A stretch of 64,000 bases of DNA from Rhodobacteraceae bacterium Water-Bin34 (GTDB lineage: Bacteria; Pseudomonadota; Alphaproteobacteria; Rhodobacterales; Rhodobacteraceae). Made by a program: the position numbers and the translations under genes. Below the pieces are notes generated by a model that had not been told where the DNA came from, did not search any database, and saw only the letters and a list, made by a program, of their open reading frames with translations. Positions within the stretch are counted from its first letter, which is position 1, and the number at the start of each line of letters is the position of its first letter. The stretch lies in assembly GCA_900197625.1 (NCBI GenBank), contig FZLS01000003.1:32992-96991 (forward strand), given 5' to 3'. This document shows, piece by piece, positions 1 to 62,210 of the stretch.

Positions 1-864
1 TGCCATAGCAGCACCAACCAAAAGTAACACAACTGAAGATGTTATGCCTGCTCTTGTTATAACACCTGAAAGATCACTTATCTTAAGAGTTCTCAAAACA
101 AATAAGCCAATGAATAATGCATATGCTACTGCAACAGCAGCCGCTTCAGTAGGTGTAAATATACCCCCAAGTATACCACCTAATATGATAACAGGCGTTA
201 ATAGCGGAAAAAAGGCTTTTATACTTGCTTGACCTCGTTCAGGCCATGAATATTTATTTGTAGCAACAGGAAAATCATATTTATTTGCCATAAATTTAAC
301 CATTAGCATTAAGCCTATACCAACCATAGCTCCGGGTATCACGCCTGCTAAGAATAATGCTGCAACACTTTCTCCCATAACATATGCATATATAATCATT
401 ATCCCAGAAGGTGGAATGATTGGCCCAATAACAGAACTTGCTGCGGTGATCGCAGCTGCAAATTTTCTCGTATATCCTTGTTTTTCCATAGCAGGAATTA
501 ACATCGACCCTAACGCAGATGTGTCAGCAACCGCTGATCCTGATAAACCTGCAAAAAGCATAGAAGACAATACATTTACATGTGCTAGCCCTCCCCTCAG
601 ATGACCCATGAATGCTTGTGAAAATTCCACAAGTCTCATTGTTATTCCACCTCTATTCATTAGTTCGCCAGCTAACATGAAGAATGGAATGGCCATTAAC
701 GGAAAGCTATCAATCCCATTATATACGTTTCTATATAATAAGGTGATATCTCGTTCTTGGCCGTTTAAATACAGAAGTAGACCCGGTGCAGCCAATAAGC
801 CAAAAAATACTGGTAAGCCTATGATTAGAAAAAATAAAAATACTGGTAAAAACCAAATTAACAT
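1..864 (-). CDS. dctM: TRAP transporter large permease DctM, partial (C-terminal end outside the window)
   Basis: The frame is open from the ATG at 864 to the left edge, giving 288 codons; whole DctM proteins have about 425 residues, so roughly the last third is missing. The visible part is a chain of hydrophobic helices. It holds the family's conserved stretches: an N-terminal WFLPVFLFFLIIGLPV segment, a GLSGSAVADTSALGS loop, and an IIPPSG motif typical of the ion transporter superfamily. DctM is the inner-membrane channel subunit that works with DctQ and a periplasmic binding protein (DctP) to import organic acids or sugar acids with sodium. Its start overlaps the end of dctQ by 7 bases, so the two are translationally coupled. 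No dctP is visible; it may lie beyond the edge. The substrate is inferred from the neighbouring monooxygenase genes. Confidence 0.93.
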   Translation of the reverse strand, partial: MLIWFLPVFLFFLIIGLPVFFGLLAAPGLLLYLNGQERDITLLYRNVYNGIDSFPLMAIPFFMLAGELMNRGGITMRLVEFSQAFMGHLRGGLAHVNVLSSMLFAGLSGSAVADTSALGSMLIPAMEKQGYTRKFAAAITAASSVIGPIIPPSGIMIIYAYVMGESVAALFLAGVIPGAMVGIGLMLMVKFMANKYDFPVATNKYSWPERGQASIKAFFPLLTPVIILGGILGGIFTPTEAAAVAVAYALFIGLFVLRTLKISDLSGVITRAGITSSVVLLLVGAAMA

Positions 865-1454
865 TTAGAAGTCTCCATGCTTGTATCATCATGGATCTTC
901 GGTAACAAATTACCTTTACCTAGTTTTAATAATATACTTCTTCCTATTAATTCTAAGTTTACTGATATCAATAATATGCAGCCAACAAATAAAGACATCA
1001 TCATCCATGATCTTGGAATTCTATACCAATTTTGAAAATCTATAGTGATTGGAATATATAAGGATGCTGTTGCAAACCTTCCACCAAAGCCCGTAACTTC
1101 TGCATACCCAATTCGAACAGCTGATATAAGCACTAATAATGATAATAATAAAAGTAGCATTGATAATATAAAATTAATAATATTTGGAATGAATTGAGTT
1201 ATGAAATCAATTGCAACAAACCCACCTCTTCTAAAGGCAGTTGGTGCCATTAACCCAGTCATCCATAACATGCAGAATCTTGCAGCTTCATCTGGCCAGG
1301 GAAGTGCATTATTCAAAATATATCGGAAAAATACTTGTATTAGAATTGCAATAACCATCAGTATAACAGTTAAAACCCCAAGTCCTCTGCATAATTTTAA
1401 AACAAAATTATTAATTCGGCTTAAGATTTGCGTTATAACTATTAAGAAAGTCAT
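858..1454 (-). CDS. dctQ: TRAP transporter small permease DctQ
   Basis: This is a 198-residue protein with four predicted membrane helices, a size and topology typical of DctQ. The segment with WPDEAARFCMLWMTGLMAP followed by RRGGF matches the conserved DctQ core (W-x-EE/DE-AR in helix 2). I chose the ATG at 1454; a TTG five codons upstream is possible but has no better ribosome site. It follows the flavin reductase gene by about 37 bases and overlaps dctM, so it belongs to the monooxygenase operon read leftward from 4063. Together with DctM it should carry the substrate of that operon across the inner membrane. Confidence 0.92.
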   Translation of the reverse strand: MTFLIVITQILSRINNFVLKLCRGLGVLTVILMVIAILIQVFFRYILNNALPWPDEAARFCMLWMTGLMAPTAFRRGGFVAIDFITQFIPNIINFILSMLLLLLSLLVLISAVRIGYAEVTGFGGRFATASLYIPITIDFQNWYRIPRSWMMMSLFVGCILLISVNLELIGRSILLKLGKGNLLPKIHDDTSMETSKC

Positions 1455-1491
1455 ATTTTGCAATTCCAACCTGCACTAAATGTAAGCATTT

Positions 1492-2019
1492 TCATTTATT
1501 TATCCCTTTGGGTTTAATTTCTCCAAATTCACCGGAGAAAAAAGATAGTGCATTACCCGTACTTTCAAGAGCGCTTTCTACTTTTCCAATTATAATTTTA
1601 TGATCGCCTGCATCATGCATATCATATTTGACACAATGGAATCTTGCTAAACAATTATCAATTATTGGAACGCCTTTACTCGATATACTGTGTGAAAATG
1701 TATCAAATGCTTTCTTGTTTTTAACAAACTCATTACACAAAGCCTGCTGATCAAAATTAAGTACATGAATTGCAAAATAATGTGCTTTTTCAAAATATTT
1801 AAATCTTGAAGATCTCTTATCAGGGGCCCACATGATTAAAGCAGGATTTAGAGATATAGATGAAAAACTGTTTACTGTCATGCCAATATGGCCATCTATG
1901 CTGTCGCATGAGACTATTGTAACACCTGTTGCAAATCGGCTAAAAGCTTTACGAAGCATTTTTGTATTATCAGAATTAGGCGTGAATTCTGTAAACATAT
2001 CTATGCCTCCATCAGCCAT
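1492..2019 (-). CDS. smoA: Flavin reductase (RutF/HpaC-like), SmoA-type partner of the monooxygenase
   Basis: A 175-residue single-domain flavin reductase. The N-terminal part has FRKAFSRFATGVTIVS-like family features (here AFSRFATGVTIVSCDS, residues 26-41), then GMTVNSFSSISLNPALI, the FMN-binding signature of the flavin reductase-like domain. It should use NAD(P)H to make reduced FMN for the SsuD-like monooxygenase two genes upstream. Its ATG overlaps the stop of the aldo/keto reductase (TAATG), so it is co-translated. The order monooxygenase, aldo/keto reductase, flavin reductase matches smoC, smoB, smoA of the sulfoquinovose monooxygenase pathway. The family call is firm; the smoA name rests on that context. 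Confidence 0.8.
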   Translation of the reverse strand: MADGGIDMFTEFTPNSDNTKMLRKAFSRFATGVTIVSCDSIDGHIGMTVNSFSSISLNPALIMWAPDKRSSRFKYFEKAHYFAIHVLNFDQQALCNEFVKNKKAFDTFSHSISSKGVPIIDNCLARFHCVKYDMHDAGDHKIIIGKVESALESTGNALSFFSGEFGEIKPKGINK

Positions 2020-2909
2020 TATGCTACTTCTCTTCCTAATGCAGCAGTGTATAGTTCAAACCATGTAATTCGATCCATTTTAACTTTAAATGCATCACTA
2101 ATTTTGGATATTCTATTAATATTATTAGTTCCCATAATTGGAATTATATTAGCTGGGTGTGTCAGTAAAAATGAAATTGCTACAGCTGATCTGTCTACGT
2201 TATAATTTGAAGCAATTTCGTCCATTTTATTGGTTAGCTCATTTTTATTTGTCATCAGCTTACCTCCACCCAAAGGTGACCAGGCCATAATTGGTGAAGC
2301 ATTTTTTTGGTGAAATACTACATCTCCATTAGTAAAAGATTCTATAGATTGTAATGATAATTCTATTTGGTTTGTATGAAGTTGGTTACTCATAGAAGAT
2401 TGTAATAATTCCCAGTCGTAAGGCCTGTAATTTGATACACCTACTGATCTCACCTTGCCAGATTTGACTAATTCATCAAGAGCATGACCAGTTTCGTAGT
2501 GATCCATAAATGGATCAGGTCTATGAATTAAGAGCATGTCTATATGGTCAACATTCATGTTTTTTAATGATGCGTTTACAGATGCATTAATATGTTTTTT
2601 TGAGGTATCATAATACTTAACTGGAACATCTGAATATTTTCCACATGGTGCAACAATTCCACATTTTGTGACAATTTCAATCTTATTTCTTAGTGCTTTG
2701 TTTTCTTTTAATACTCTACCGAATAGTGCTTCAGCAGAATAATCACCATATATATCAGCTTGATCAAATGTTGTTATACCTTGTTCGAGGCATAAGTTAA
2801 TTTTATTTAATACAGATTTGTTATCACTTTTTTCGCCATCAGCAAGGCGCCACATGCCATAAATGATTTGACTGAAATCTAAAGTTTCATTTATTTTAAT
2901 CCGTTCCAT
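2019..2909 (-). CDS. smoB: Aldo/keto reductase, SmoB-like (YdhF group)
   Basis: A 296-residue aldo/keto reductase. The catalytic tetrad is visible as Asp49 and Tyr54 (FDQADIYG), Lys82 (VTKCG) and His129 (LLIHRPDP). The C-terminal part keeps the cofactor-binding pattern (PIMGTNN followed by an arginine). It resembles the E. coli YdhF group. In the sulfo-SMO pathway SmoB reduces 6-oxo-glucose, made by desulfonation of sulfoquinovose, to glucose with NADPH. Here it sits between the monooxygenase and the flavin reductase with 1-base stop/start overlaps on both sides, the same three-gene set. The family is certain; the 6-oxo-glucose substrate is inferred from context. Confidence 0.8.
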   Translation of the reverse strand: MERIKINETLDFSQIIYGMWRLADGEKSDNKSVLNKINLCLEQGITTFDQADIYGDYSAEALFGRVLKENKALRNKIEIVTKCGIVAPCGKYSDVPVKYYDTSKKHINASVNASLKNMNVDHIDMLLIHRPDPFMDHYETGHALDELVKSGKVRSVGVSNYRPYDWELLQSSMSNQLHTNQIELSLQSIESFTNGDVVFHQKNASPIMAWSPLGGGKLMTNKNELTNKMDEIASNYNVDRSAVAISFLLTHPANIIPIMGTNNINRISKISDAFKVKMDRITWFELYTAALGREVA

Positions 2910-4063
2910 TACTTTCTAATTCCTGTGCCTAAAGGTGTTGAAGGAGTTTTATTTGGAACACGTCCATAAACACTTGGTAATGAACATGTATTTAATTTTG
3001 GTAGAACTTTTGATCCAAAATGTTTTGCTTCATCAATATGCGGGTAACCTGAGAAAATAAAAGCTCTTATTCCCATCTTTTCATATTCATTTATTTTGGA
3101 TAATACTTGATCTGCTGATCCTACTAATGCTGCGCCACAGCCAGAGCGGGCTCGTCCTACACCTGTCCAAAGGTTTTGCTCAATATAGCCATATTTATCA
3201 GCTAATTCCCTATTTTTAGATTGATGAGATACACCTAAAGATGTTGAGTCTAATGCTCTATCTCGTATCATCTTGCCATACTCATCATCTAATTTTGAAG
3301 TGATATATTCCGCATATTCCTTTGCCTCTATTTCAGTATCACGTACTATAACATGTACCCTGAGGCCATAATCTAAAGTTCTATTATATTTCTGTGCAAC
3401 ATCATTAACCGCTCTCATTCGATCAGCTAGATCTTCTTTTTTTTCCGGCCACATTAAATATACATCACAATGTTCTCCGCATAGCTCCAAGGCAGATGGT
3501 GAGTAACCTCCAAAATACAGTAATGGACCATTAGTTTGGTAAGGCACTACTGGTGAAGTATCTATATTTTTAAAATTATATATTTTACCTTCGTGGTTAA
3601 TGTGATTTTTTGTCCAAGCTTGTTTTAAAATTTCAACAACTTCTCTAGACCTTTGGTACCGATATGTACTCTCTTCTGTTTGACCAGGGAAATCAGAACT
3701 AATTATGTTTACTGTTAACCTACCTTTAAGCATGTGATCTAATGTAGCAATTGTTCTAGCGAGCATTATTGGTTGCATTTCGCCGCATCTAACAGCTGCT
3801 AGTAAATTGATATCAGATGTTATAGGTGCACATCCCGCAACAAAAGATAAAGTATCTTGGCCGACTTGGTATGATGAAGGGCAAAGAATATTATTAAATC
3901 CTTGCTCTTCTGATACCGTAACAATTTTAGAACAATGCTCCCAGCTTGATCTTAATTTTCCATCTGGCACACCAAGAAATTGATAATCATCTGAGCAGAG
4001 TGCTGAAAACCACGAAACTTCACTTGCATTTAAATTTGATGATTTAATAGGTACGACCGTCAT
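2909..4063 (-). CDS. smoC: LLM-class flavin-dependent monooxygenase, SsuD/SmoC-like (candidate sulfoquinovose monooxygenase)
   Basis: A 384-residue enzyme of the bacterial luciferase-like fold, related to alkanesulfonate monooxygenase SsuD. Family marks are AAVRCGEMQPIMLARTIATLDH, the GRLTVNIIS strand, the LLYFGGYSPSALEL loop and a C-terminal LWTGVGRARSGCGAALVGS segment with an ISGYPH-like end (here FSGYPHIDEA). It would use reduced FMN and O2 to cleave a C-S bond, releasing sulfite and an aldehyde. I took the ATG at 4063, preceded by a GAAAG ribosome site; a TTG 13 codons upstream is less likely. It leads the operon smoC-smoB-smoA-dctQ-dctM. A general alkanesulfonate or sulfone substrate cannot be excluded, but SsuD operons do not normally carry an aldo/keto reductase. 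Confidence 0.75.
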   Translation of the reverse strand: MTVVPIKSSNLNASEVSWFSALCSDDYQFLGVPDGKLRSSWEHCSKIVTVSEEQGFNNILCPSSYQVGQDTLSFVAGCAPITSDINLLAAVRCGEMQPIMLARTIATLDHMLKGRLTVNIISSDFPGQTEESTYRYQRSREVVEILKQAWTKNHINHEGKIYNFKNIDTSPVVPYQTNGPLLYFGGYSPSALELCGEHCDVYLMWPEKKEDLADRMRAVNDVAQKYNRTLDYGLRVHVIVRDTEIEAKEYAEYITSKLDDEYGKMIRDRALDSTSLGVSHQSKNRELADKYGYIEQNLWTGVGRARSGCGAALVGSADQVLSKINEYEKMGIRAFIFSGYPHIDEAKHFGSKVLPKLNTCSLPSVYGRVPNKTPSTPLGTGIRK

Positions 4064-4091
4064 TAATTTATCTTTCAATGAATTATAAGTA

Positions 4092-4134
4092 TTGATTAAC
4101 AAATCAATTTATGTAAATCAATGGTGTATCAATT
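4092..4134. promoter_or_regulatory. Candidate operator region between smoC-like gene and gntR
   Basis: The short divergent region holds an inverted repeat TTGATT-AACA-AATCAA (4092-4107) and three direct copies of ATCAAT (4103, 4117, 4128), spaced 14 and 11 bases apart. Repeats between divergent genes are where a GntR/UTRA regulator usually binds. No site of known consensus was recognised, so the assignment is positional. Confidence 0.35.
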
Positions 4135-4140
4135 TATTCT

Positions 4141-4863
4141 TTGAGATTACAAGTGAACACTTCAAACCAAAATTTTCATAATTTACCAAAATACATACAG
4201 ATATCAGAATTATTAATCCGTGATATCGGTTCTGGAAGATTAATTGATGGTGAAAGATTACCTCCAGAAAGAGTGCTAGCAAAAACACTTAATGTCACTG
4301 TAACTACATTGCGTAAATCACTGAAAGTACTTGTAGAAAAAGGAATGCTTAATCAAGTTCATGGATCTGGAAATTATGTATGTCATGGTGCCAAAGATGA
4401 CAGTGTATACGCAATGTTCAGACTTGAGTTATTGAAAGGCGGTGGGCTTCCAAGTGCAAAATTTATTGATATAAAACAGATGGAAAAGCCAGCAAATTTA
4501 CCAATATTTGGGACATCTAATATAGCAACTAGAATGCGTAGAATTAGATATCTTAATAAAACAATTATAGGGCTTGAGGAAATTTGGTTGGATTTGGATG
4601 AAGGTAAAGTAAAAAAAAATCAAGTTTCGGATTCGCTTTATCATTATTATCGTACTCGTCTCGGATTCTGGATAACGCATGCAGAAGATAGGGTAAGTAT
4701 AAATGCCCTGCCCGATTGGACTCCAAATGATTTTTCTTTGCCTGTTGGAACTATTACTGGATTTATAGAACGTTTTAGTTGGTCAGAGAAATCAAAACCT
4801 ATTGAATATTCAAAAACATGGTTTGATACAAATGCTGCACAGTATGTGCAAAGATTAAAATAG
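4141..4863 (+). CDS. GntR-family regulator with UTRA ligand domain
   Basis: A 240-residue repressor-type protein. The N-terminal winged helix (residues 12-80) has the GntR signature: YIQISELLIRDIGSGRL, then ERLPPERVLAKTLNVTVTTLRKSLKVLVEKG and HGSGNYV. The rest is a UTRA-type effector domain with the RRIRYLN and EEIWLD elements. The start is a TTG at 4141; a GTG at 4153 with a GAGA site seven bases before it is an equally good choice. It is divergent from the monooxygenase operon and 8 bases upstream of the Gfo/Idh/MocA gene, so it most likely senses the same substrate (a sugar or sulfosugar) and represses both units. Confidence 0.88.
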   Translation: MRLQVNTSNQNFHNLPKYIQISELLIRDIGSGRLIDGERLPPERVLAKTLNVTVTTLRKSLKVLVEKGMLNQVHGSGNYVCHGAKDDSVYAMFRLELLKGGGLPSAKFIDIKQMEKPANLPIFGTSNIATRMRRIRYLNKTIIGLEEIWLDLDEGKVKKNQVSDSLYHYYRTRLGFWITHAEDRVSINALPDWTPNDFSLPVGTITGFIERFSWSEKSKPIEYSKTWFDTNAAQYVQRLK

Positions 4864-4871
4864 GGAATAAT

Positions 4872-5990
4872 ATGACAAAATTAACACATTATGGAATTAT
4901 TGGTTGTGGTATGATGGGGCAAGAACATCTCAAAAATATTGCATTGCTTGAAAATACGGTGATAGAGGCAATATATGAACCTGATGCGGAAATGGCAAAA
5001 AAAGCATCTAAGTTTGCTCCAAAAGCAATTTTTACAAATAGTGTAGATGAGTTATTAGATATTAACGATATTGATTGTCTCGTAATCGTAAGCCCAAATT
5101 TTTGTCACATTGATCAATTGATGCAGATATTAGATAAAAGACATATTCCAATTTTAGTTGAAAAACCACTCTTTACGAATGAAAATGATATACCAAAATT
5201 AAAGAAATTTAGAGATAAATACAAATCTCATGTTTGGGTTGCTATGGAGTATCGATATATGCCTCCAATTGAAGCGCTTAGTGAAAAAATTATACAATCG
5301 ACTGGAGAGATCAATATGCTCACAATCAAAGAGCATCGATTTCCCTTTTTAGAAAAAGTAAATGATTGGAATAGATTCAATGAATTTTCAGGTGGAACAT
5401 TAGTAGAAAAATGCTGTCATTTTTTTGACTTAATGAGGCTACTAATAAAGTCTGAACCAATACGAATAATGGCTAGTGCAGGGCAATCAGTTAATCATTT
5501 AGATGAAACATATGACGGCAAGACTCCAGATATAATCGATAATGCTTATGTTATAGTTGATTTTAAAAATAATGTTAGAGCTATGCTTGAGTTATGTATG
5601 TTTGCAGAAGGGTCAAGGTATCAAGAAGAAATTTCTGCTGTTGGGCCAATCGGTAAAATAGAAGCATTGGTGCCAGGGCCAGGGAGATTTTGGCCTAAGC
5701 ATCTAGGCCCTGCCCCAACACCAAAATTAATAATTAGCCCAAGAAATCCTCAAGGACCAATACATGAAGATATAATTGTAGATGAAAAATTATTAAGTGC
5801 CGGTGATCATAATGGATCCACCTTTTATCAACATCAAAAGTTTCTTAAATTAGTTAGAGGAGACTTAAAGCTACCTGAAGTTTCACTTCTTGATGGATGG
5901 AAAGCTGTTGCAATGGGATTAGCAGCACAAAAAAGTGCAAAAACTGGTTTAGCAATAGATTTACAAGATGAAACTAATTATCCAATTTAG
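4872..5990 (+). CDS. Gfo/Idh/MocA-family NAD-dependent protein (candidate sulfoquinovosidase of the GH188 type)
   Basis: A 372-residue protein with the family's two domains. The N-terminal Rossmann fold has GIIGCGMMG at 8-16, and the EKP motif is at 97-99. The C-terminal beta-sheet domain has GGTLVEKCCHFFD with a conserved His183. The start has a clear AGGGA site and follows gntR by 8 bases. In a plain reading it oxidises or reduces a sugar or inositol. From established knowledge, some Gfo/Idh/MocA relatives are NAD-dependent glycosidases, and a sulfoquinovosidase family (GH188) of this fold occurs beside sulfoquinovose genes. With smoABC next door and no GH31 sulfoquinovosidase in view, that role is attractive but unproven. 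Confidence 0.82.
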   Translation: MTKLTHYGIIGCGMMGQEHLKNIALLENTVIEAIYEPDAEMAKKASKFAPKAIFTNSVDELLDINDIDCLVIVSPNFCHIDQLMQILDKRHIPILVEKPLFTNENDIPKLKKFRDKYKSHVWVAMEYRYMPPIEALSEKIIQSTGEINMLTIKEHRFPFLEKVNDWNRFNEFSGGTLVEKCCHFFDLMRLLIKSEPIRIMASAGQSVNHLDETYDGKTPDIIDNAYVIVDFKNNVRAMLELCMFAEGSRYQEEISAVGPIGKIEALVPGPGRFWPKHLGPAPTPKLIISPRNPQGPIHEDIIVDEKLLSAGDHNGSTFYQHQKFLKLVRGDLKLPEVSLLDGWKAVAMGLAAQKSAKTGLAIDLQDETNYPI

Positions 5991-6058: not shown

Positions 6059-6082
6059 CGGATGATTTCATCCGCTATTTTT
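6059..6082 (+). terminator. Rho-independent terminator after the gntR-gfo unit
   Basis: A 7-bp perfect stem CGGATGA/TCATCCG (6059-6065 with 6068-6074) and a two-base loop are followed by a run of five T at 6078-6082. It lies about 70 bases after the Gfo/Idh/MocA stop codon and before the photolyase start, which separates the two transcription units. Confidence 0.75.
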
Positions 6083-6110
6083 GATACAATTAGTATATAA
6101 GGTATGTGAA

Positions 6111-7646
6111 ATGATATTAAGGTTAATATTGGGTGATCAACTAAGTGAAAATATATCTAGTTTAAGAAACGCAAATAAAGCAGATGATCATATTTTAATC
6201 TGTGAAGTTAAATCTGAAGCAACATATGTTAGGCACCATAAGAAAAAAATAGCTTTTTTATTCTCAGCTATGAGACACTTTTCTAAATCTCTTGAAGATT
6301 TAAATTTTAATTTAACCTACATAAAATATGATGATGTAAATAATACTGGAAGCCTTTTTGGTGAAGTCAAAAAGAAGATAGATAACAATAATTTCAAAAA
6401 AATTGTAATAACTATGCCAAACGAATTTAGACTCTATTCAGAAATTATAGAATGGGAGAATAAATTAAATATTCCTGTTGAAATAAAGGAAGATGATAGG
6501 TTTCTTTGCACTACAGAAGATTTCAATACTTGGGCAAGTGAAAGGAAACAACTCCGAATGGAGTATTTCTATCGGAATATGAGACGAAAATATGATATCT
6601 TAATGGACGGCGATAATCCCATTGGCGGGCAATGGAATTTTGATAGTGAAAACAGAAAGCCACCTAAAGACGGCCTGAATGTACCAAAAAATTATGCTAT
6701 AAAGCCTGATAAGATTACAACTGATGTTTTAAATCTAGTTGAAAAAAACTTTAAGGATCATTTTGGAGATTTGAAGCCATTTTACTTTGCAGTAACCCGG
6801 CAACAAGCTTTGATAGTATTAGATGAGTTCATAGATAAAAGATTATCAATGTTTGGTGATTTTCAAGATGCTATGATTGAAGGTGAACCTTGGATGTTTC
6901 ATAGCCATATAAGCTTCTATTTGAATTGTGGCTTACTAACACCCTTAGAGTGCATAAAGGCTGCAGAGAATGCTTATTATGACAATAGAGCCCCCCTAAA
7001 TGCCGTTGAAGGCTTTGTAAGGCAAATTTTAGGCTGGAGGGAGTACATAAGGGGAGTATATTGGTACAAGATGCCAGATTATAAAGAAGAAAATTATTTG
7101 GAAGCATCAAGAAAGTTGCCTGAATTTTATTGGACAGGTCAAACAAATATGAATTGTTTAAAACAATGTATTAATGAAACAAAAGAAAATTCATATTCTC
7201 ATCACATACAAAGATTAATGGTGCTTGGTAATTTTGTATTATTGGCAGGTATAAATCCTGATGAAGTTCATAATTGGTATCTTGCGGTTTATTCAGATGC
7301 TTATGAGTGGGTTGAATTGCCAAATGTTACTGGGATGATTTTATATGCAGATGGTGGCATCTTGGCATCAAAGCCCTATGCTGCGAGTGGTGCATATATA
7401 AATAGAATGTCAAACTATTGTAAAAATTGTCATTACAAAGTGAATTTAAAAGATGGAAAAGATGCCTGCCCATTTAATTATTTATACTGGGATTTTTTAA
7501 TAAGAAATGAGAATAAACTAAGAAATAATCCAAGAATGGGATTAATTTATAGAAATTTAGATAAAATGAATTCAGATAAGTATGAAACCATTAAATCTGA
7601 TAGTAATATTTTTCTTAAACATATTGAAAACAATGAAAAAGTCTAA
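6111..7646 (+). CDS. phrB: Iron-sulfur bacterial photolyase (PhrB/FeS-BCP type, (6-4) photolyase family)
   Basis: A 511-residue protein of the deoxyribodipyrimidine photolyase-related family, about the size of Agrobacterium PhrB. The start is [11 protein letters not shown], typical of this class. Four cysteines sit where the [4Fe-4S] ligands are expected: C349 in MNCLKQC, C437 and C440 in NYCKNCHY, and C453 in [11 protein letters not shown]. The FAD-domain motif [15 protein letters not shown] is present. The ATG at 6111 is chosen; an upstream TTG falls inside the terminator T-run. It would repair UV lesions in DNA using blue light. Its end overlaps the DUF2256 gene by 14 bases, starting a three-gene overlapping cluster. 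Confidence 0.92.
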
Positions 7647-7767
7647 TTTACCTTCTAAAAATTGTGCAAAATGCGATCGTCCTTTTACCTGGCGTAAAAA
7701 ATGGAAAAATGTATGGAATGAAGTTAAATATTGCTCTGAGAGATGCAAACGTGAAAAGAACTCTTGA
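7633..7767 (+). CDS. DUF2256 small zinc-ribbon protein (44 aa)
   Basis: A 44-residue basic protein beginning [14 protein letters not shown]. It matches DUF2256: CAKC (C-x2-C), a central RPFTWRKKW segment, then YCSERCKR (C-x3-C), giving four cysteines likely to bind one zinc. The ATG at 7633 lies inside the end of the photolyase gene, and the 3' end overlaps the next gene by 17 bases. The function is unknown. Its position between two photolyase-family genes suggests a role in their activity or assembly, which is inference from neighbourhood only. Confidence 0.85.
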
Positions 7768-53478: not shown

Positions 53479-53480
53479 AA

Positions 53481-55475: not shown

Positions 55476-57113
55476 TCATTTTCTTAATTCATAAATTTTC
55501 TTGAGCAATGGCTGCGTAGCAACATGCAAATTAGAAATTGATTCATTACCTTCTATAACATTACCAATTTCAACAGCTGCAACCTTGCCCAATTCAACTC
55601 CCCATTGATCAAATGAGTTAACTCCCCAGATAATTCCCTGTACAAATATTTTATGCTCATACATTGCAATAAGCCTACCTAATGAAAATGGTGACAACTC
55701 TTTATGTATAATGGATGTACTTGGTTTATTACCTTTAAAATATCTATGCGGGGTGAGGTTTTTTGCTTTTTCAGCATCAACATTATTCTTTAGCATTTCT
55801 TTAAGAACTTTATCTTTTGATTTCCCAAAGGCTAATGCTTCAGATTGCGCTAAAAAATTAGATATTAGTTTTTCATGATGTCCAGATAAATTATGTGAAG
55901 CCCTTGCAGCAATTATGAAATCTACAGGGACTATATTAGTTCCCTGATGTAATAATTGAAAAAATGAATGCTGAGCATTTGTTCCAGCTTCACCCCAAAC
56001 AATTGGAGCAGTTTCAATTGAAACATCAGATCCATCTTTTGAAACAGATTTACCGTTACTTTCCATATCCATTTGTTGGATATATGCAGGAAAACGGTCT
56101 AATCTCTGATCATATGGTATTATCGCTAAAGTTGGTAACTTCATAAAATTACGGCGCCAGATACCAATTAAACCCAATAAAACTGGTAAATTTTTATTTA
56201 ATGGAGCAGTTTTAAAATGAATATCCATATCTCTAAAACCTGCCAAAAGTTCGCGAAAATTTTTGGATCCTATTGATAGTGCTATTGGCAGTCCAATTGA
56301 AGCGCACATTGAATATCTGCCTCCAACCCAATCCCAGAATCCGAAAACATTTTCATTTTTTATTCCAAATTCCTTTGTGGCTTTAAGATTACTAGATAGT
56401 GCAACCATGTTGTTGCTAATTTCACTTTCTGTGAGTTTAGATAAAAGCCAATCTTTTGCTGTTTTAGCATTTGTCATTGTTTCAATTGTGGTAAACGTTT
56501 TTGAAGCCACAAGAATTAATGTTCTTTTTGGATCTAACCCAGATGTTGTATCCAAAAAATCATTACCATCAACATTCGAAATAAAATGTAAATTAGGGCC
56601 ACCATTCGAGAAGGCACTTAATGCATTTACACTCATTACTGGACCTAAGTCAGACCCGCCTATCCCAATGTTAATTACATCAGTAAATGATTGTCCATGG
56701 GCATTAGAAATCTTACCTGATCTAATCGAGTCTGCAAAATTCAAAAATTCATTTAATACATCATCCACCATATCTGATGTTGGAATTGCATCTACTTCAT
56801 AAGCATCGGTTGAATTTGCTCTAAGTGCAACATGCATTACCGCTCTGTTTTCTGTGCTATTTATATATTTGCCAGAAAACATTGCATCACGTTGTTGTTC
56901 TAAATTGCATTCTTTAGCAAGTTTTATCAAATTACGTAGCACACCTTCATCTATGCATTCTTTTGAAAAATCAATGTTAAGATCATCTTTGCTAAATGAA
57001 AATTGATCAAATCTTTTTGGATTATCTAAAAATAAATCGTTTAAATGAACATCTTTTAATCTATTCCAATCTTTTTGAAGATTATTCCAAGAAGCAACGT
57101 TTTGAATGCTCAT
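55476..57113 (-). CDS. pgi: Glucose-6-phosphate isomerase
   Basis: A 545-residue Pgi. Motifs include NIGIGGSDLGPVMS, LILVASKTFTTIETMTNA, FGFWDWVGGRYSMCASIGLPIALSIG and GEAGTNAQHSFFQLLHQGT. It interconverts glucose-6-P and fructose-6-P, letting fructose enter the oxidative route or supplying sugars for synthesis. Its ATG overlaps the eda stop by 4 bases, the end of the gap-zwf-edd-eda-pgi operon. Confidence 0.97.
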   Translation of the reverse strand: MSIQNVASWNNLQKDWNRLKDVHLNDLFLDNPKRFDQFSFSKDDLNIDFSKECIDEGVLRNLIKLAKECNLEQQRDAMFSGKYINSTENRAVMHVALRANSTDAYEVDAIPTSDMVDDVLNEFLNFADSIRSGKISNAHGQSFTDVINIGIGGSDLGPVMSVNALSAFSNGGPNLHFISNVDGNDFLDTTSGLDPKRTLILVASKTFTTIETMTNAKTAKDWLLSKLTESEISNNMVALSSNLKATKEFGIKNENVFGFWDWVGGRYSMCASIGLPIALSIGSKNFRELLAGFRDMDIHFKTAPLNKNLPVLLGLIGIWRRNFMKLPTLAIIPYDQRLDRFPAYIQQMDMESNGKSVSKDGSDVSIETAPIVWGEAGTNAQHSFFQLLHQGTNIVPVDFIIAARASHNLSGHHEKLISNFLAQSEALAFGKSKDKVLKEMLKNNVDAEKAKNLTPHRYFKGNKPSTSIIHKELSPFSLGRLIAMYEHKIFVQGIIWGVNSFDQWGVELGKVAAVEIGNVIEGNESISNLHVATQPLLKKIYELRK

Positions 57114-57760
57114 GATAACTCTCTAACTGCATCTTTTGCTAATTTTTCTATATATTGCCAATCTTTATTAGTGATAACATCTTTCGGAGCAACCCAAGAT
57201 CCGCCAACACATTCAACATTAGGTGAGTCTAAATAGTTCTTTGCATTTTCTTGTGAAACACCACCCGTAGGACAAAATGTGATGTTTGGTAAAGGAGAGG
57301 AAAGTGATTTTAAAAATTTTGCACCTCCAGCTGCTTCAGCTGGAAAGAATTTTTGAACACTATACCCTTTCTCTAAAAGTACCATTGCTTCACTTGCCGA
57401 ACTTGCTCCAGCAAGTAATGGCAAACCAGCTTCTTCACAGGCACTAATTAGATTATCCGTTGCACCTGGAGAAACGCCAAAGGTTGCCCCTGCTTCAACA
57501 GCATTGTTAACATCTGTATAAGTTAAAAGCGTTCCAGCCCCAACAATACCACCTTTAATTTTTGACATTTCACGAATTGCATCAAGTGCACATTCTGTTC
57601 TTAATGTGACTTCTAGTACTGGTAACCCACCTGCAACTAGTGCTTCACCAAGATCTCTTGCGGTAGATATATCATCGATTATGAGAACCGGTATAACTGG
57701 TGCAATTTTACATATTTCTAAATTTCTGATACTGGCATCTTTTGATGATATTTTTCTCAT
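57110..57760 (-). CDS. eda: KDPG aldolase (2-dehydro-3-deoxyphosphogluconate aldolase)
   Basis: A 216-residue class I aldolase. The catalytic Glu region is LEVTLRTECALDAI, the GAGTLLTYTDVNNAVEAGATFGVSPG segment follows, and the Schiff-base lysine lies in VQKFFPAEAAGG. It splits KDPG to pyruvate and glyceraldehyde-3-P in the Entner-Doudoroff route. It stands 12 bases after edd. Confidence 0.97.
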   Translation of the reverse strand: MRKISSKDASIRNLEICKIAPVIPVLIIDDISTARDLGEALVAGGLPVLEVTLRTECALDAIREMSKIKGGIVGAGTLLTYTDVNNAVEAGATFGVSPGATDNLISACEEAGLPLLAGASSASEAMVLLEKGYSVQKFFPAEAAGGAKFLKSLSSPLPNITFCPTGGVSQENAKNYLDSPNVECVGGSWVAPKDVITNKDWQYIEKLAKDAVRELS

Positions 57761-57772
57761 TAAAGTCTCTTT

Positions 57773-59581
57773 CTAAAAATTAAATACTGATGCACCTGAT
57801 TTTGCTGGACCAGCATTATTCCTAAATATGTCAAACAATTCCCTGCCAACACCAAAACTATTGTTCATTAAATCAGGATGATTAACTTTTCTATCGAAAA
57901 TTTTGTTGTTATCAACATCAATTGTACCATTAAGTGCATTGACAGTAACAATATCTCCGTCTTGAAGATATGCTATGGGACCTTCGTCTAATGCTTCTGG
58001 AGACATATGAATTGCAGCTGGAACTTTACCTGATGCTCCAGACATTCTTCCATCTGTAATTAAAGCTACATTTAGCCCTCTGGTTTGAAGAACAGACATA
58101 CAAGGAGTTAAGTTGTGTAATTCGGGCATTCCATTAGCCCGTGGTCCTTGATACCTTACAGCAATTATAACGTCATTAATGAATTCACCGTCACGAAAAG
58201 CCTTTAAAACAGATTCTTGATCATTAAAAACCCTCACAGGAGCTGTTATTTTTCGTCTGGAAATTTCTACTGCGGAAACCTTCATTACAGCACTACCCAA
58301 ATTTCCATTTAAATCTGCTAAACCACCAGTTTCTTGAAAAGGATCTAATGTTGTTGATATAATTTTAGAATTAAGACTAGAAGAAGCACCAGAGTGCCAA
58401 TCAAGTTCACCATCTATAATTTTTGGTTCTTTTGTATATGCTTCCAATCCATTTCCCATTATGGTTTGGGTGTCTGAATGCAATAAATTAGCTCCCAACA
58501 ATTCTGTAATTACTAGTCCTAGACCACCCGCGGCATGGAAATGGTTAACATCAGCCAATCCATTAGGGTAAACCTTAGCTAAAAGTGGTATTACTTTTGA
58601 TATTTCAGCAAAATCAGACCAATCAATTATAATGCCCGATGCTCGAGCCATAGCGATTAAATGAATCAATAAATTAGTAGAGCCACCAGTTGCCATTAAT
58701 CCGACTATTCCGTTTACATAAGCTTTTTCATCTAAAACTTTAGATACTGGAATATAATTTGAACTTAAATCTGATATGGAGAGAGCATGTTTTGCTCCAA
58801 AATCAGTCAATGCATCCCTCAGTGGTGTATTAGGATTTACAAAACTTGATCCAGGTAAGTGTAAACCCATAAACTCCATAAGCATTTGGTTTGTATTAGC
58901 TGTACCATAAAATGTGCATGTTCCAGGACCGTGATAACTTGCCATTTCTGATGCCATTAAATCAGAGCGGTTAGCCTTTCCCTCAGCAAAATCTTGTCTA
59001 ATTTTTGCTTTCTCATCATTACTTTGACCAGTGGTCATAGGGCCTGCTGGCAAAAATACTGCTGGTAAATGACCAAATGTTGCAGCAGATATGATCATAC
59101 CAGGTACAATTTTATCACAAACGCCCAGATAAACAGTTGTATCAAAAACATTATGCGATAGTCCAATCGCAGCTGACATAGCAATTGCATCACGGCTAAA
59201 AAGTGATAATTCCATGCCTGTCTGACCTTGTGTTATGCCATCACACATAGCAGGTACACCAGCAGCAACTTGAGCAGTACCACCAGCAAGCCTGGCAGCT
59301 TTTTTTATTATATCAGGATACTTTTCAAAAGGCTGATGAGCTGAAAGCATGTCATTATAAGCATTTATAATTCCAATGTTTCCACCTGCTCCATCAATTA
59401 ATCGTTTTTGATCTTCAGGAACTGGTGCATATGCGTGTGCTTGATTTCCACAAGACAAATGTGCTCTTTTGGGACCTTCTTTTCGTGCATCATTCATTTT
59501 ATTGAGATAAAGAGAACGTGTTGCTTCTGATCGTTTTGTAATTCTATCAGTTACTATTTTTATTGTTGGATTAATCATCAT
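57773..59581 (-). CDS. edd: 6-phosphogluconate dehydratase
   Basis: A 602-residue IlvD/Edd-family iron-sulfur dehydratase. Features are SCGNQAHAYAPV near residue 43, GIINAYNDMLSAHQPF, PAMCDGITQGQTGMELSL, YLGVCDKIVPGM and LITDGRMSGASGKVPAAIH. The cysteines in these segments fit the [4Fe-4S] ligands. It makes KDPG from 6-phosphogluconate. It lies between zwf and eda. Confidence 0.97.
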   Translation of the reverse strand: MMINPTIKIVTDRITKRSEATRSLYLNKMNDARKEGPKRAHLSCGNQAHAYAPVPEDQKRLIDGAGGNIGIINAYNDMLSAHQPFEKYPDIIKKAARLAGGTAQVAAGVPAMCDGITQGQTGMELSLFSRDAIAMSAAIGLSHNVFDTTVYLGVCDKIVPGMIISAATFGHLPAVFLPAGPMTTGQSNDEKAKIRQDFAEGKANRSDLMASEMASYHGPGTCTFYGTANTNQMLMEFMGLHLPGSSFVNPNTPLRDALTDFGAKHALSISDLSSNYIPVSKVLDEKAYVNGIVGLMATGGSTNLLIHLIAMARASGIIIDWSDFAEISKVIPLLAKVYPNGLADVNHFHAAGGLGLVITELLGANLLHSDTQTIMGNGLEAYTKEPKIIDGELDWHSGASSSLNSKIISTTLDPFQETGGLADLNGNLGSAVMKVSAVEISRRKITAPVRVFNDQESVLKAFRDGEFINDVIIAVRYQGPRANGMPELHNLTPCMSVLQTRGLNVALITDGRMSGASGKVPAAIHMSPEALDEGPIAYLQDGDIVTVNALNGTIDVDNNKIFDRKVNHPDLMNNSFGVGRELFDIFRNNAGPAKSGASVFNF

Positions 59582-59637
59582 TTAATTTCCTATTAAATTG
59601 ATTTTTATTACTGTCTGATAAAGTTTAAAGTTGATTA

Positions 59638-61074
59638 TTATTGCCAACTACGACCATCACGGGTCAATAATTCTGCTGCTTCTGCAGGCCCATTTGTTCC
59701 AATATTATAATCAATTGGAACATTGTTGGATTTATTCCAATCTGACATGATATTATCAATCCAACTCCATGCTGCTTCAAGTTCATCACCCCTCATGAAT
59801 AACGTTTGGTCACCTCTACAAGTATCCATTATTAGTCTTTCATAAGCTTCAATTGCTTCAACTTGTCCTGAAAGCTGTGCAAAAGTCATATCCAAAGGTG
59901 CATTGATTAATCTCATACCACCAGGGCCGGGTTCTTTTACTCCAATATGAAGTGTCATGCCTTCTTCTGGCTGGAGTCTTATCACAAGTTTATTTTGATA
60001 ATTTTCACCTAAATCAGGAAAGATTGAATGAGCTAGAGGCTTAAATTCAATAACAATTTCTGATACTTTTTTTGACATTCCTTTACCAGTTCGCAAATAA
60101 AATGGTACTCCAGCCCACCTCCAATTAGATATATGAGCTTTTAAGGCAACAAAACTTTCAGTTTTTGAGTTTATATTATTTACATGAGATTTAAATGAGT
60201 TGTCACCATCAACATATTGACCTCTGACCGTATCTTTCACGTCAACAGGCTGAATAGCTCTTATAACTTTAAGTTTTTCATTTCGAATATCATCTGCATC
60301 AAAATGCGCTGGGGGCTCCATTGCAATTAAGCAAAGTAATTGCATTAAATGGTTTTGAACCATGTCACGCATAGCCCCAACGTCTTCATAATATTCACCA
60401 CGTCCGTTAACATCACCTGTTTCAGCAACGGTTATTTGAACATGATCAATATAATTATTATTCCACAACGGCTCCAATAATACATTTGCAAACCTTAAGG
60501 CCATTAAATTTTGTACTGTTTCTTTACCTAAGTAATGGTCAATTCTGAAAATTTGCTTTTCATTAAAAACTCTACGCAATGTATCATTCAACATTTTAGC
60601 TGATGGGAGGTCAGTACCCAAAGGTTTTTCCACTACGACGCGTGTGTTAGCAGTTATTAATGCATAATCATTTAACTTTTTTGAACAACTATCAATCAAA
60701 GAAGGACTAATAGATAAATAAAATGTTCTTATTTGATTGGAGTTAGAATCAAAAAACTTTTCAAGCTCTTTCCAACCTTTGTCTGATTTTAAATCAACAC
60801 TTAGAAAGGTAATCATTTTACAAAATTTAACAACATCATTTTGATCATAAACATTTGCAGGGACGAATTCTTTTATAAAATCCACCACCATGACACTATA
60901 TTCTTTACTTGAAAGTTCTTGTCTAGAGATACCGAGTATTCGAGACACATCTGGAATTTGTCCAGCTATGAAACGTCTAAATAGCGCTGGAATGATTTTG
61001 CGTTTTGCCAGATCACCAGTAGCGCCAAATACAACCAAATCAAAGGGTTGTACCGGTATAGTCTTAGAAACCAT
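59638..61074 (-). CDS. zwf: Glucose-6-phosphate dehydrogenase
   Basis: A 478-residue enzyme. The NADP-binding VVFGATGDLAKRKIIPALF is at about 14-32, the catalytic/substrate site is FRIDHYLGKETVQNLMALRFAN, and WAGVPFYLRTGKGM follows. It forms 6-phosphogluconolactone. No phosphogluconolactonase gene (pgl) sits beside it, as the next gene is edd. It starts 12 bases after gap. Confidence 0.97.
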   Translation of the reverse strand: MVSKTIPVQPFDLVVFGATGDLAKRKIIPALFRRFIAGQIPDVSRILGISRQELSSKEYSVMVVDFIKEFVPANVYDQNDVVKFCKMITFLSVDLKSDKGWKELEKFFDSNSNQIRTFYLSISPSLIDSCSKKLNDYALITANTRVVVEKPLGTDLPSAKMLNDTLRRVFNEKQIFRIDHYLGKETVQNLMALRFANVLLEPLWNNNYIDHVQITVAETGDVNGRGEYYEDVGAMRDMVQNHLMQLLCLIAMEPPAHFDADDIRNEKLKVIRAIQPVDVKDTVRGQYVDGDNSFKSHVNNINSKTESFVALKAHISNWRWAGVPFYLRTGKGMSKKVSEIVIEFKPLAHSIFPDLGENYQNKLVIRLQPEEGMTLHIGVKEPGPGGMRLINAPLDMTFAQLSGQVEAIEAYERLIMDTCRGDQTLFMRGDELEAAWSWIDNIMSDWNKSNNVPIDYNIGTNGPAEAAELLTRDGRSWQ

Positions 61075-61086
61075 TTTAAAAACCTT

Positions 61087-62085
61087 TTATAAATTTGCCA
61101 TTACTTTAGCAGTATCAATCATTCTATTAGAAAAACCCCATTCATTATCATACCAGGAAACCACTCTGACCAAACCACCTTTAGTTACAGTTGTTTGTGG
61201 TTGTGCGTAATTACTAGAAGTAGTCGTATGATTATAATCTATAGAGACTTTTGGTTCATTTTCAAAGTTAAGAATACCATTCATTCTCCCCTCAGATGCT
61301 GATTTTAGTGCTGCATCAATTTCTTCTACGCTCACAGATCTATTAGGAATATAAGACAAATCAACCAATGATACGTTTGGTGTTGGCACTCGAATAGCAC
61401 TACCCTCTAATTTTCCAGTTAATTCTGGAAGCACTAATGAAATTGCACGTGCAGCACCAGTAGAAGTTGGTATCATAGATAGTGAGGCGGCCCGCGCACG
61501 GTATAAATCTTTATGATCACCGTCATGTAGAGCTTGGTCACCTGTATATGCATGAATAGTTGTCATATATCCAGATTTTATACCTGCTAGATCATTTAAT
61601 ACTTTTGCTATTGGCGCCAAACAATTTGTTGTACATGAACCATTTGAAACAATTAAATCTTTAGAACTTAATGTGTCCTCATTCACTCCATAAACAATTG
61701 TTTTATCTACGTCTGTTCCAGGCGCTGAAATTAAAACTTTATTAGCACCAGAAAGTAATAATTTTTCGGCATCATTTCTTTTTGTAAAAAATCCTGTGCA
61801 TTCCATTGCAATGTCAACATCATTCCAAGGTAATTTTTCAGGCTCTCTTATTGATGTTATCCTTATAAACTTATCATTTATTTTTATACCGCCAGCCGTA
61901 GCTTCAACAACTCCATCAAAACGTCCGTGAACTGAGTCATATCTTAATAAATGTATTATAGTATTGATCTCAGATAGATCGTTTATGGCAACAACATCTA
62001 TGTCATGATGATTATATTCAAAGACTGATCTTAATACTGATCTCCCTATTCGTCCAAAACCATTAATTGCTACCTTTAAAGTCAT
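61087..62085 (-). CDS. gap: Glyceraldehyde-3-phosphate dehydrogenase, type I
   Basis: A 332-residue GAPDH. It starts MTLKVAINGFGRIGRSVLRS with the catalytic cysteine in SNGSCTTNCLAPIAKVLND (most relatives have SNASCTTN) and RAASLSMIPTSTGAARAI, and ends WYDNEWGFSNRMIDTA. I chose the ATG at 62085, preceded by AGGGA; the longer frame would cross the LacI operator. It leads the Entner-Doudoroff operon and oxidises the triose phosphate made by Eda. Confidence 0.96.
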   Translation of the reverse strand: MTLKVAINGFGRIGRSVLRSVFEYNHHDIDVVAINDLSEINTIIHLLRYDSVHGRFDGVVEATAGGIKINDKFIRITSIREPEKLPWNDVDIAMECTGFFTKRNDAEKLLLSGANKVLISAPGTDVDKTIVYGVNEDTLSSKDLIVSNGSCTTNCLAPIAKVLNDLAGIKSGYMTTIHAYTGDQALHDGDHKDLYRARAASLSMIPTSTGAARAISLVLPELTGKLEGSAIRVPTPNVSLVDLSYIPNRSVSVEEIDAALKSASEGRMNGILNFENEPKVSIDYNHTTTSSNYAQPQTTVTKGGLVRVVSWYDNEWGFSNRMIDTAKVMANL

Positions 62086-62119
62086 ACTAATTTCCCTAAT
62101 AATATATAAATCCACATTA

Positions 62120-62135
62120 CCGTTAGCGCTAACGG
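62120..62135. promoter_or_regulatory. LacI-type operator controlling the Entner-Doudoroff operon
   Basis: CCGTTAGCGCTAACGG is a perfect 16-base palindrome with the GTTAGCGCTAAC core common among LacI-family sugar regulators. It lies 35 bases before the gap start and 76 bases before the divergent lacI start. Confidence 0.85.
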
Positions 62136-62210
62136 AAATACTAAAGTTAGTCAATATATTTTTCAAAATTCTTACGTGACATCTTCATTGTAAAGTATAA
62201 GAATATAACT

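Follow-up and report, generated by a model that had tools for sequence, protein, structure and literature searches.

The stretch analyzed here, 64,000 nucleotides of the draft genome of Rhodobacteraceae bacterium Water-Bin34 (C130:32992-96991; hereafter the window), opens with a gene cluster which, as predicted from its sequence, very probably encodes a sulfoquinovose monooxygenase (sulfo-SMO) pathway for sulfoquinovosyl glycerol, fed by a tripartite ATP-independent periplasmic (TRAP) importer. The genome comprises 274 contigs with an estimated contamination of 5.1%, and the G+C content of the window is 34.8%. Eight genes form the locus (Table 1), with sqgA and gntR on the forward strand and, divergent from them, smoC-smoB-smoA-dctQ-dctM-dctP on the reverse strand. 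An initial annotation had recognized an SsuD-like monooxygenase, an aldo/keto reductase and a flavin reductase joined by 1-base overlaps, with dctQ-dctM next in line and a divergent GntR regulator, and coordinates, joints and Pfam matches agree with this description; the smoC/smoB and smoB/smoA overlaps are exactly one base each (CATTA on the forward strand, 2907-2911 and 2017-2021). The locus is real, and fuller than stated there. dctM, truncated by the left edge of the window, is whole on the contig, where it encodes 429 aa and ends at C130:32566, and extension of the contig leftward, a check proposed in that annotation, revealed dctP, which overlaps dctM by 11 bases (taking the longest dctP reading frame) and completes the importer. 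The gene set given for the first 5,990 bases was right as far as it went, but sqgA, which lies inside that range and matches the GH188 structures 8qc2/8qc3, had gone unnamed.

Table 1. Features of the sulfoquinovose locus and of its surroundings. Plain numbers are window positions; C130 and L003 mark positions on the contig and in the retrieved locus.
Feature	Coordinates	Strand	Support and remarks
smoC-like FMNH2-dependent sulfoquinovose monooxygenase (predicted)	2909..4063	-	Bac_luciferase E 6e-49; 384 aa from ATG 4063; TTG 4102 is a possible start
smoB-like aldo/keto reductase, predicted 6-dehydroglucose reductase	2019..2909	-	Aldo_ket_red E 5e-52; PDB 7bby/7bbz match
smoA-like flavin reductase	1492..2019	-	Flavin_Reduct (PF01613) E 1e-33; NF052639 FerA 177.5 bits (cut-off 260)
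dctQ, small TRAP permease subunit	858..1469	-	PF04290 E 7e-19
dctM, large TRAP permease subunit	1..864	-	PF06808 E 1e-82; TIGR00786 above cut-off
dctP, TRAP receptor	C130:31482-32576, left of window	-	PF03480 E 1e-50
gntR, GntR/UTRA-family regulator	4141..4863	+	PF00392, PF07702; start TTG 4141 or GTG 4153
sqgA, GH188 NAD+-dependent sulfoquinovosidase (predicted)	4872..5990	+	PDB 8qc2/8qc3, 8zn9
Conserved element ATTGATACACCATTGATTTACA between gntR and smoC; predicted operator/promoter	4112..4133	-	Conservation upstream of smoC in relatives
gap-zwf-edd-eda-pgi, outside the locus proper	55476..62166	-	NCBIfam
Sel1-repeat gene, between dctP and the MauG-like gene	C130:30965-31435 (L003:16966-17436)	+	Similar sequence in 59/99 loci searched
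MauG-like di-haem protein gene, 0.5 kb left of dctP	C130:29675-30985 (L003:15676-16986)	-	PF03150 E 8e-33

The gene set is not a chance grouping, because the Pfam E-values are strong (Table 1) and the order of the six genes from smoC to dctP, on a single strand and with a complete dctQ-dctM-dctP, recurs in 52 of 80 loci from other genomes; these 80 are the best of 579 relatives encoding an SmoC relative and not a random sample. An assembly artefact is likewise argued against, since the block aligns in one piece with the DNA of Rhodobacterales bacterium HTCC2255 (83% identity over 21,176 alignment columns). DctM and DctP are 98–99% identical to those of HTCC2255 and SmoC, SmoB and SmoA 83–90%, with SmoB at 83%. 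A recombinant or chimaeric operon, suggested by the difference between DctM/DctP and SmoB, was rejected, as the DNA identity in 250-base steps runs from 74 to 94% with no lasting break, the dctP stretch being at the upper end (87–94%). The importer genes dctM and dctP seem to evolve more slowly than the smo genes. HTCC2255 and other close relatives are presumably marine bacteria, and, judging from these relatives, the host is probably of marine origin too.

Regarding the enzymes, SmoC matches the PDB entries 7olf (E 3e-201, 73.9% identity) and 7oh2 (E 3e-199, 73.4%), and the sulfonate monooxygenase 7jv3 at 32.5% identity. SmoB has its best PDB match, over full length, in 7bby/7bbz (E 3e-108), with the runner-up structure 52 orders of magnitude weaker (E 3e-56), and SmoA is a general member of the flavin reductase family that stays below the cut-off of the FerA model. 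We take 7olf and 7oh2 to be SmoC structures and 7bby and 7bbz to be SmoB structures, reportedly those of Sharma et al. 2022. A quick tree built from 43 proteins places the SmoC of the window with 7olf/7oh2 and roseobacter sequences (22 rows, support 83). The neighbouring group stands at roughly 50% identity (11 rows, starred support 97), and SsuD-like proteins are separate (10 rows, starred support 98, with two long branches flagged). The possibility that the monooxygenase is SsuD or SfnG was rejected on this tree position and on the family models, both of which remain below half of their cut-offs (TIGR03565 for SsuD, 232.5 bits vs. 518.2; TIGR04021 for the dimethylsulfone enzyme SfnG, 147.6 bits vs. 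382.95). This supports the SmoC reading of the initial annotation, and we predict a SmoC-type monooxygenase releasing sulfite from sulfoquinovose. In roseobacters, the pathway has been predicted where SmoB and SmoC lie within ten open reading frames, according to the text of PMC13372026; in the window, smoB adjoins smoC and the flavin reductase gene smoA lies beside them. A second SmoC-like lineage at 48–52% identity (L094-L105) was observed separately, having a SmoB-like gene (32–38%) adjacent in 10 of 12 short loci and a SqgA-like gene (35–52%) in 8 of 12, three genomes of 1.7–1.8 Mb included.

The sqgA product is a Gfo/Idh/MocA protein matching the SqgA structures 8qc2/8qc3 at E 1e-102 and, better still, 8zn9 at E 7e-152, whose PDB name is merely oxidoreductase. 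For ArSqgA, the text of PMC10755693 gives Lys107, Tyr136, Arg166, Leu170, Lys172, Glu189, His193 and His321 as sulfoquinovose contacts, with Arg166/Lys172/Leu170 as the sulfonate triad and the others as sugar contacts. When these positions are transferred through the 8qc2 chain (FlSqgA), the offset being 13 throughout, all eight are kept in the window (K98, Y127, R156, L160, K162, E179, H183 and H313), and they are invariant in 88 of 88 rows, window included; rows with less than 80% coverage, less than 44% identity or a stop had been dropped before this count, as also before the DctP tree described below. Glu163, which occupies the place of the tyrosine of GH109 (PMC10755693), was left out of the count, as it maps to the residue adjacent to a conserved Glu (E154). 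Inspection by eye revealed no signal peptide in SqgA. Since GH188 is reported to be almost universal in roseobacter sulfo-SMO clusters (PMC10755693), the pairing of sulfo-SMO with GH188 is already known. The presence of sqgA nevertheless makes the glycoside, rather than free sulfoquinovose, the likelier cargo of the importer, and the locus should, on this sequence evidence, accept the natural glycoside sulfoquinovosyl glycerol beyond free sulfoquinovose.

The importer, too, is tied to these genes. DctQ, DctM and DctP are adjacent and assigned by Pfam, and the start of DctP appears signal peptide-like by eye; the ATP-binding cassette (ABC) importer of the Agrobacterium-type Smo cluster is absent here, dctQ-dctM-dctP standing in its place. 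Five of the 80 loci are cut by a contig end, with dctQ and dctM visible in two of them, and SqgA lies within 4 kb in 76, two of the four exceptions ending at a contig edge. Gene content, gene order, homology, SqgA residue conservation and the linkage of the TRAP genes to sulfoquinovose genes were computed directly, the latter in an even draw of 198 Rhodobacteraceae genomes with E-value cut-offs of our own choice (1e-150 for SmoC; 1e-100 for DctP and SqgA); these genomes are related, and significance values ignore kinship. SmoC was found in 88, SqgA in 101 and DctP in 73 of them. Where SmoC and DctP occur together (54 genomes), they lie within 6 kb of each other in 50 and on separate contigs in four, and never distant on one contig. 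SqgA accompanies SmoC in 84 of the 88 genomes (within 6 kb in 78 of the 84), and 70 of the 73 DctP genomes have SmoC or SqgA, whereas only three of the 93 genomes that lack both have DctP; of these three, L150 carries a SmoA-like gene and L152 a cluster of the isomerase type. Among 385 evenly drawn alphaproteobacterial genomes, nine have SmoC at 72% identity or more and 12 a protein at 48–52%, the further matches reaching at most 36%. Most of the nearest relatives have the TRAP form. Of the proposal that a TRAP-fed locus would be a new arrangement, the TRAP link itself thus holds, the importer being complete and tied to the locus, but a single odd arrangement it is not, as it is shared by 52 of 80 loci and 50 of 88 SmoC-bearing genomes.

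Some observations concern the loci lacking this importer. Of the 23 non-TRAP sulfo-SMO loci, 8 have an ABC receptor and permease of the sugar type no more than 10 kb away (on the opposite strand in L060 and L084). The ABC receptors near smo genes (L063:12617-13900; L028:15700-17049) form two separate clusters, and none of their matches to solved receptors is better than E 1e-10, going by which ABC uptake in sulfo-SMO loci may also have been swapped. In L054, L063, L064 and L077, likewise non-TRAP loci, a gene for a membrane protein of the PF03601 family (Cons_hypoth698), at most 7.5 kb from smoABC, possibly encodes a sulfite exporter.

Further information on the TRAP substrate comes from 19 genomes which encode DctP and are SmoC-negative. 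In 13 of the 19 clusters, we observed a gene of the sulfoquinovose isomerase family, together with a PfkB kinase and GH188 (13/13 each), a LacD/DeoC aldolase (12/13), a DeoR regulator and a 2-hydroxyacid dehydrogenase (11 each) and an aldose epimerase and an aldehyde dehydrogenase (7 each); genes of these clusters were sorted into families by BLAST clustering, with one representative each compared to Pfam or NCBIfam. In gene content these 13 clusters resemble the sulfo-EMP2 pathway. Compared to the window, their DctP is 70–85% identical and their GH188 only 45–51%. A tree computed from 65 DctP sequences (52 from sulfo-SMO loci including the window and 13 EMP2-like; L081, one of the 52 TRAP loci, is absent from the DctP trees through the row filter) requires at least four changes of cluster label, three of them forced by starred branches. 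A single clade of the 13 EMP2-like rows appeared in 0 of 200 bootstrap trees and was rejected (p-AU 0.007), in a test run after the first tree had been inspected, with a bootstrap that had not settled and several long EMP2-like rows. In a tree of 71 rows, with six unclassified rows uncounted, three label changes are needed and a starred pair unites the sulfo-SMO row L032 with the EMP2-like row L146. Exchange of the cluster type around DctP would be occasional, because the labels are still clustered relative to shuffles (12 changes on average vs. 4 observed). As two pathways with no common degradation step have the same importer and sulfoquinovosidase, the TRAP substrate is most simply read as a sulfoquinovose glycoside or sulfoquinovose.

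Several findings weigh against a TRAP-fed sulfo-SMO pathway for sulfoquinovosyl glycerol. An orthologous TRAP system beside smoA is missing in 23 of the 75 assessable loci, and this DctP is absent from 34 of the 88 SmoC genomes. L149, L150 and L156 have DctP without smoC, though smoA-like and/or smoB genes remain, and L158:6153-11413 is composed of sqgA-gntR-dctQ-dctM-dctP with no sulfoquinovose-degrading enzyme found adjacent. The best PDB sequence match for DctP reaches just E 2e-32, and its structure model is weak (27 rows; predicted local distance difference test score 68), with an uninformative pocket. The PDB names of 7olf, 7oh2 and 7bby are methanesulfonate sulfonatase, alkanesulfonate monooxygenase and aryl-alcohol dehydrogenase. 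Furthermore, the sulfo-EMP2 assignment is one of likeness, because the isomerase-like representative scores below the cut-off of its model (NF048012, 253.7 bits vs. 700), and co-location speaks for a shared role rather than for a choice among sulfoquinovose, its glyceryl glycoside or both. Within this set, L149:7374-9003 and L156:5692-10396 keep smoA, smoB and the TRAP genes, so that the key step was lost or a replacement enzyme lies elsewhere; L150 shows flavin reductase and TRAP only. The L158 island might harvest just the glycerol. L147 has the TRAP genes with SqgA on a different contig, and the L159 DctP, at 46–48% identity, is probably no orthologue.

Other explanations have to be considered. 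The TRAP system could be a mere neighbour importing another organic acid (a dicarboxylate, a uronate or a sialate-like compound), with the sulfosugar entering otherwise. TRAP receptors often bind carboxylates, and the best-matching solved receptors for DctP include dicarboxylate, sialate and sugar-acid binders. A fold search returned the TRAP receptor fold only, with the isethionate receptor IseP (8t9t) as first match, from which specificity cannot be transferred because identity is about 23%. We nevertheless judge a mere neighbour to be quite improbable, as all 50 same-contig SmoC/DctP pairs lie within 6 kb, SmoC or SqgA accompanies DctP in 70 of 73 genomes and the same TRAP stands beside a different, sulfo-EMP2-like sulfoquinovose pathway; besides, an ABC solute-binding protein from another sulfo-SMO locus has no relative at E 1e-10 in this genome, in a search that had no positive control. 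Import of free sulfoquinovose only, with SqgA idle or acting on glycosides made in the cell, would fit the former view that roseobacters are restricted to free sulfoquinovose (mentioned in PMC10755693). It is unlikely, however, in light of the 78 of 84 genomes in which SqgA lies within 6 kb of SmoC and of the company that GH188 keeps with the TRAP genes even where the degradation enzymes differ.

The remaining two explanations touch the chemistry of the substrate, and we consider both very unlikely. An alkane- or methanesulfonate enzyme degrading another sulfonate is what the PDB molecule names of 7olf and 7oh2 and the SsuD fold family would suggest, but neither the SsuD nor the SfnG model reaches half of its cut-off, and the 7bby/7bbz-like aldo/keto reductase and GH188 travel along, with SqgA in 84 of 88 SmoC genomes and nearby in most of them. 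A glycoside of another 6-sulfosugar, e.g., sulfofucose, deserves mention since a sulfofucose pathway is known in Paracoccus (PMC12421959) and the epimer is not fully separable by residue conservation. Yet the sulfofucose clusters described in the text of PMC12421959 use ABC importers and a dehydrogenase route, and SqgA of the window keeps all eight contacts, including the glutamate touching the C4 hydroxyl.

Under the favoured reading, a TRAP-fed sulfo-SMO pathway, each step of the route is proposed from the family membership of the protein concerned, and we infer substrates, transport and regulation in this way. DctP would capture the glycoside in the periplasm and DctQM would import it at the expense of an ion gradient, which TRAP importers use in place of ATP. 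In the cytoplasm, SqgA could split it into sulfoquinovose and glycerol, with NAD+ as catalytic cofactor. SmoA would then provide reduced flavin to SmoC, which, together with O2, would cut the C-S bond to give sulfite and 6-dehydroglucose, and SmoB would reduce the latter to glucose. A glucokinase-family gene is located elsewhere in the genome (C204), and glucose could pass via its product to those of the zwf-edd-eda genes at 55–62 kb. The Entner-Doudoroff operon that had been named in the initial annotation as a possible glucose outlet is indeed present, with gap, zwf, edd, eda and pgi: GAPDH-I, zwf, edd and pgi score above the cut-offs of NCBIfam equivalogs and eda above a subfamily cut-off (55.5–62.2 kb). 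With regard to sulfite, a search with PF03404 gave one sulfite-oxidase-type gene, on C84, which is unspecific as the family holds other enzymes too. The reverse strand at 52540-55259 carries xsc (sulfoacetaldehyde acetyltransferase, 928 bits vs. a cut-off of 676) and a pta-type gene, by their predicted functions a second organosulfonate outlet within the window.

GntR probably governs both directions via the conserved element between gntR and smoC (Table 1). In 79 of 80 loci such a regulator gene lies divergently at a distance of up to 3 kb, the exception, L033, ending at a contig edge. The short gap contains AATTGATACACcATTGATcTACAtcAa, after which comes a second conserved stretch, TGcTAcGCAAg. 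Of 81 upstream regions, that of the window among them, 76 agree with the 22-base core at 17 or more positions, vs. 0 of 1620 shuffles, and the core is present irrespective of locus type (TRAP 49/53, non-TRAP 22/23, cut loci 5/5). The genome of the window has a single site for the element pattern with up to three mismatches allowed, and a palindrome search detected no common inverted repeat. Conservation and position suggest that the element is likely a local operator for GntR.

Beyond dctP, a gene for a MauG-like di-haem protein (Table 1) emerged as a companion of the importer. In 42 of 52 TRAP-type sulfo-SMO loci it comes after dctP in the same orientation and at most 2.5 kb away; with a limit of 5 kb, the count rises to 44. 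It is missing in eight, one of which has less than 1 kb of flank. Among the 19 SmoC-negative TRAP loci, it was found within 2.5 kb in 11 and at any distance in the retrieved DNA in 13, sitting between dctP and the kinase gene in many EMP2-like clusters; the retrieved DNA of the 23 non-TRAP sulfo-SMO loci and of the five cut loci contained none. In the 198 genomes, where more distant MauG paralogues are common, the close form (57 rows down to E 7.6e-129, the best among the matches listed) occurs in 52 of 73 DctP genomes vs. 4 of 125 others, and within 6.5 kb in 42 of the 52. MauG and CCP enzymes operate in the periplasm. As a first guess by analogy, the target of the MauG-like enzyme there might be the glycoside or else a partner protein; in a literature search, judged by title, nothing related linked sulfoquinovose with MauG. 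On the other side of the locus, right of sqgA (6081-9310, forward strand), lie two tandem photolyase-family genes, one DPRP-type (PF04244) and one classical-type.

These data might be drawn together in a wider model, to which we give about even credence: in roseobacters, a dedicated sulfoquinovose-glycoside TRAP system would serve as a swappable front end, joined with GH188 more than once to a sulfo-SMO or a sulfo-EMP2-like route, and would bring along the periplasmic MauG-like enzyme for handling the sulfolipid headgroup. If true, it would add a transporter class not known for sulfoquinovose, which is produced at about 10 billion tons per year (PMC10755693). The literature searched says little about how marine degraders take it up. 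A TRAP system would alter the cost and kinetics of uptake, and DctP together with SmoC or SqgA would mark glycoside uptake in ocean metagenomes. A single importer common to two pathways would also offer a direct handle on the imported compound, and the MauG-like gene would be a concrete gene to explain beside the TRAP genes in both cluster types.

Concerning uptake, a sulfoquinovosyl glycerol ABC transporter is mentioned for Agrobacterium (PMC9594981), and ABC transporters are implicated in sulfoquinovose uptake according to the text of PMC12421959. The main text of PMC10755693 contains no word starting with “transport”, that of PMC13372026 no “transporter”, “TRAP” or “tripartite”, and that of the review PMC12890257 neither “TRAP” nor “tripartite”. 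No description of TRAP uptake of sulfoquinovose was found in the literature searched, although Liu et al. 2023 (roseobacters) may already show it. The TRAP importer is the part that departs from the characterized sulfo-SMO system, while the degradation pathway itself is known in roseobacters.

In comparison with known systems, the locus resembles the sulfo-SMO pathway of Agrobacterium tumefaciens (sulfo-ASMO) in its SmoC, SmoB and SmoA families, with SmoC at 73% and SmoB close to solved structures. The sulfoquinovosidase of the Agrobacterium cluster is presumably GH31-type. A further difference lies in the importer, with TRAP and GH188 in the window and the sulfoquinovosyl glycerol ABC importer in Agrobacterium (PMC9594981). 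The roseobacter clusters combining sulfo-SMO and GH188 (PMC10755693; PMC13372026) have the same enzymes, and the window is one of them; here, however, the TRAP importer is shown to be recurrent and tightly linked, a point on which their main texts are silent. With the GH188 enzyme SqgA (8QC2, 8QC3), homology extends over full length with 8/8 contacts, and sequence divergence (E 1e-102) is the only difference. The isomerase, kinase and aldolase of sulfo-EMP2, which splits a C-C instead of the C-S bond, are absent from the window locus, yet EMP2-like clusters of its relatives have this TRAP and GH188. Finally, TRAP systems were proposed for taurine and sulfolactate in Taurinivorans (PMC10507020) and for isethionate in Bilophila (PMC6386719). 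These small-sulfonate importers, including IseP, belong to the same transporter class, but theirs are C2-C3 sulfonates, whereas a sulfosugar glycoside is the predicted cargo here.

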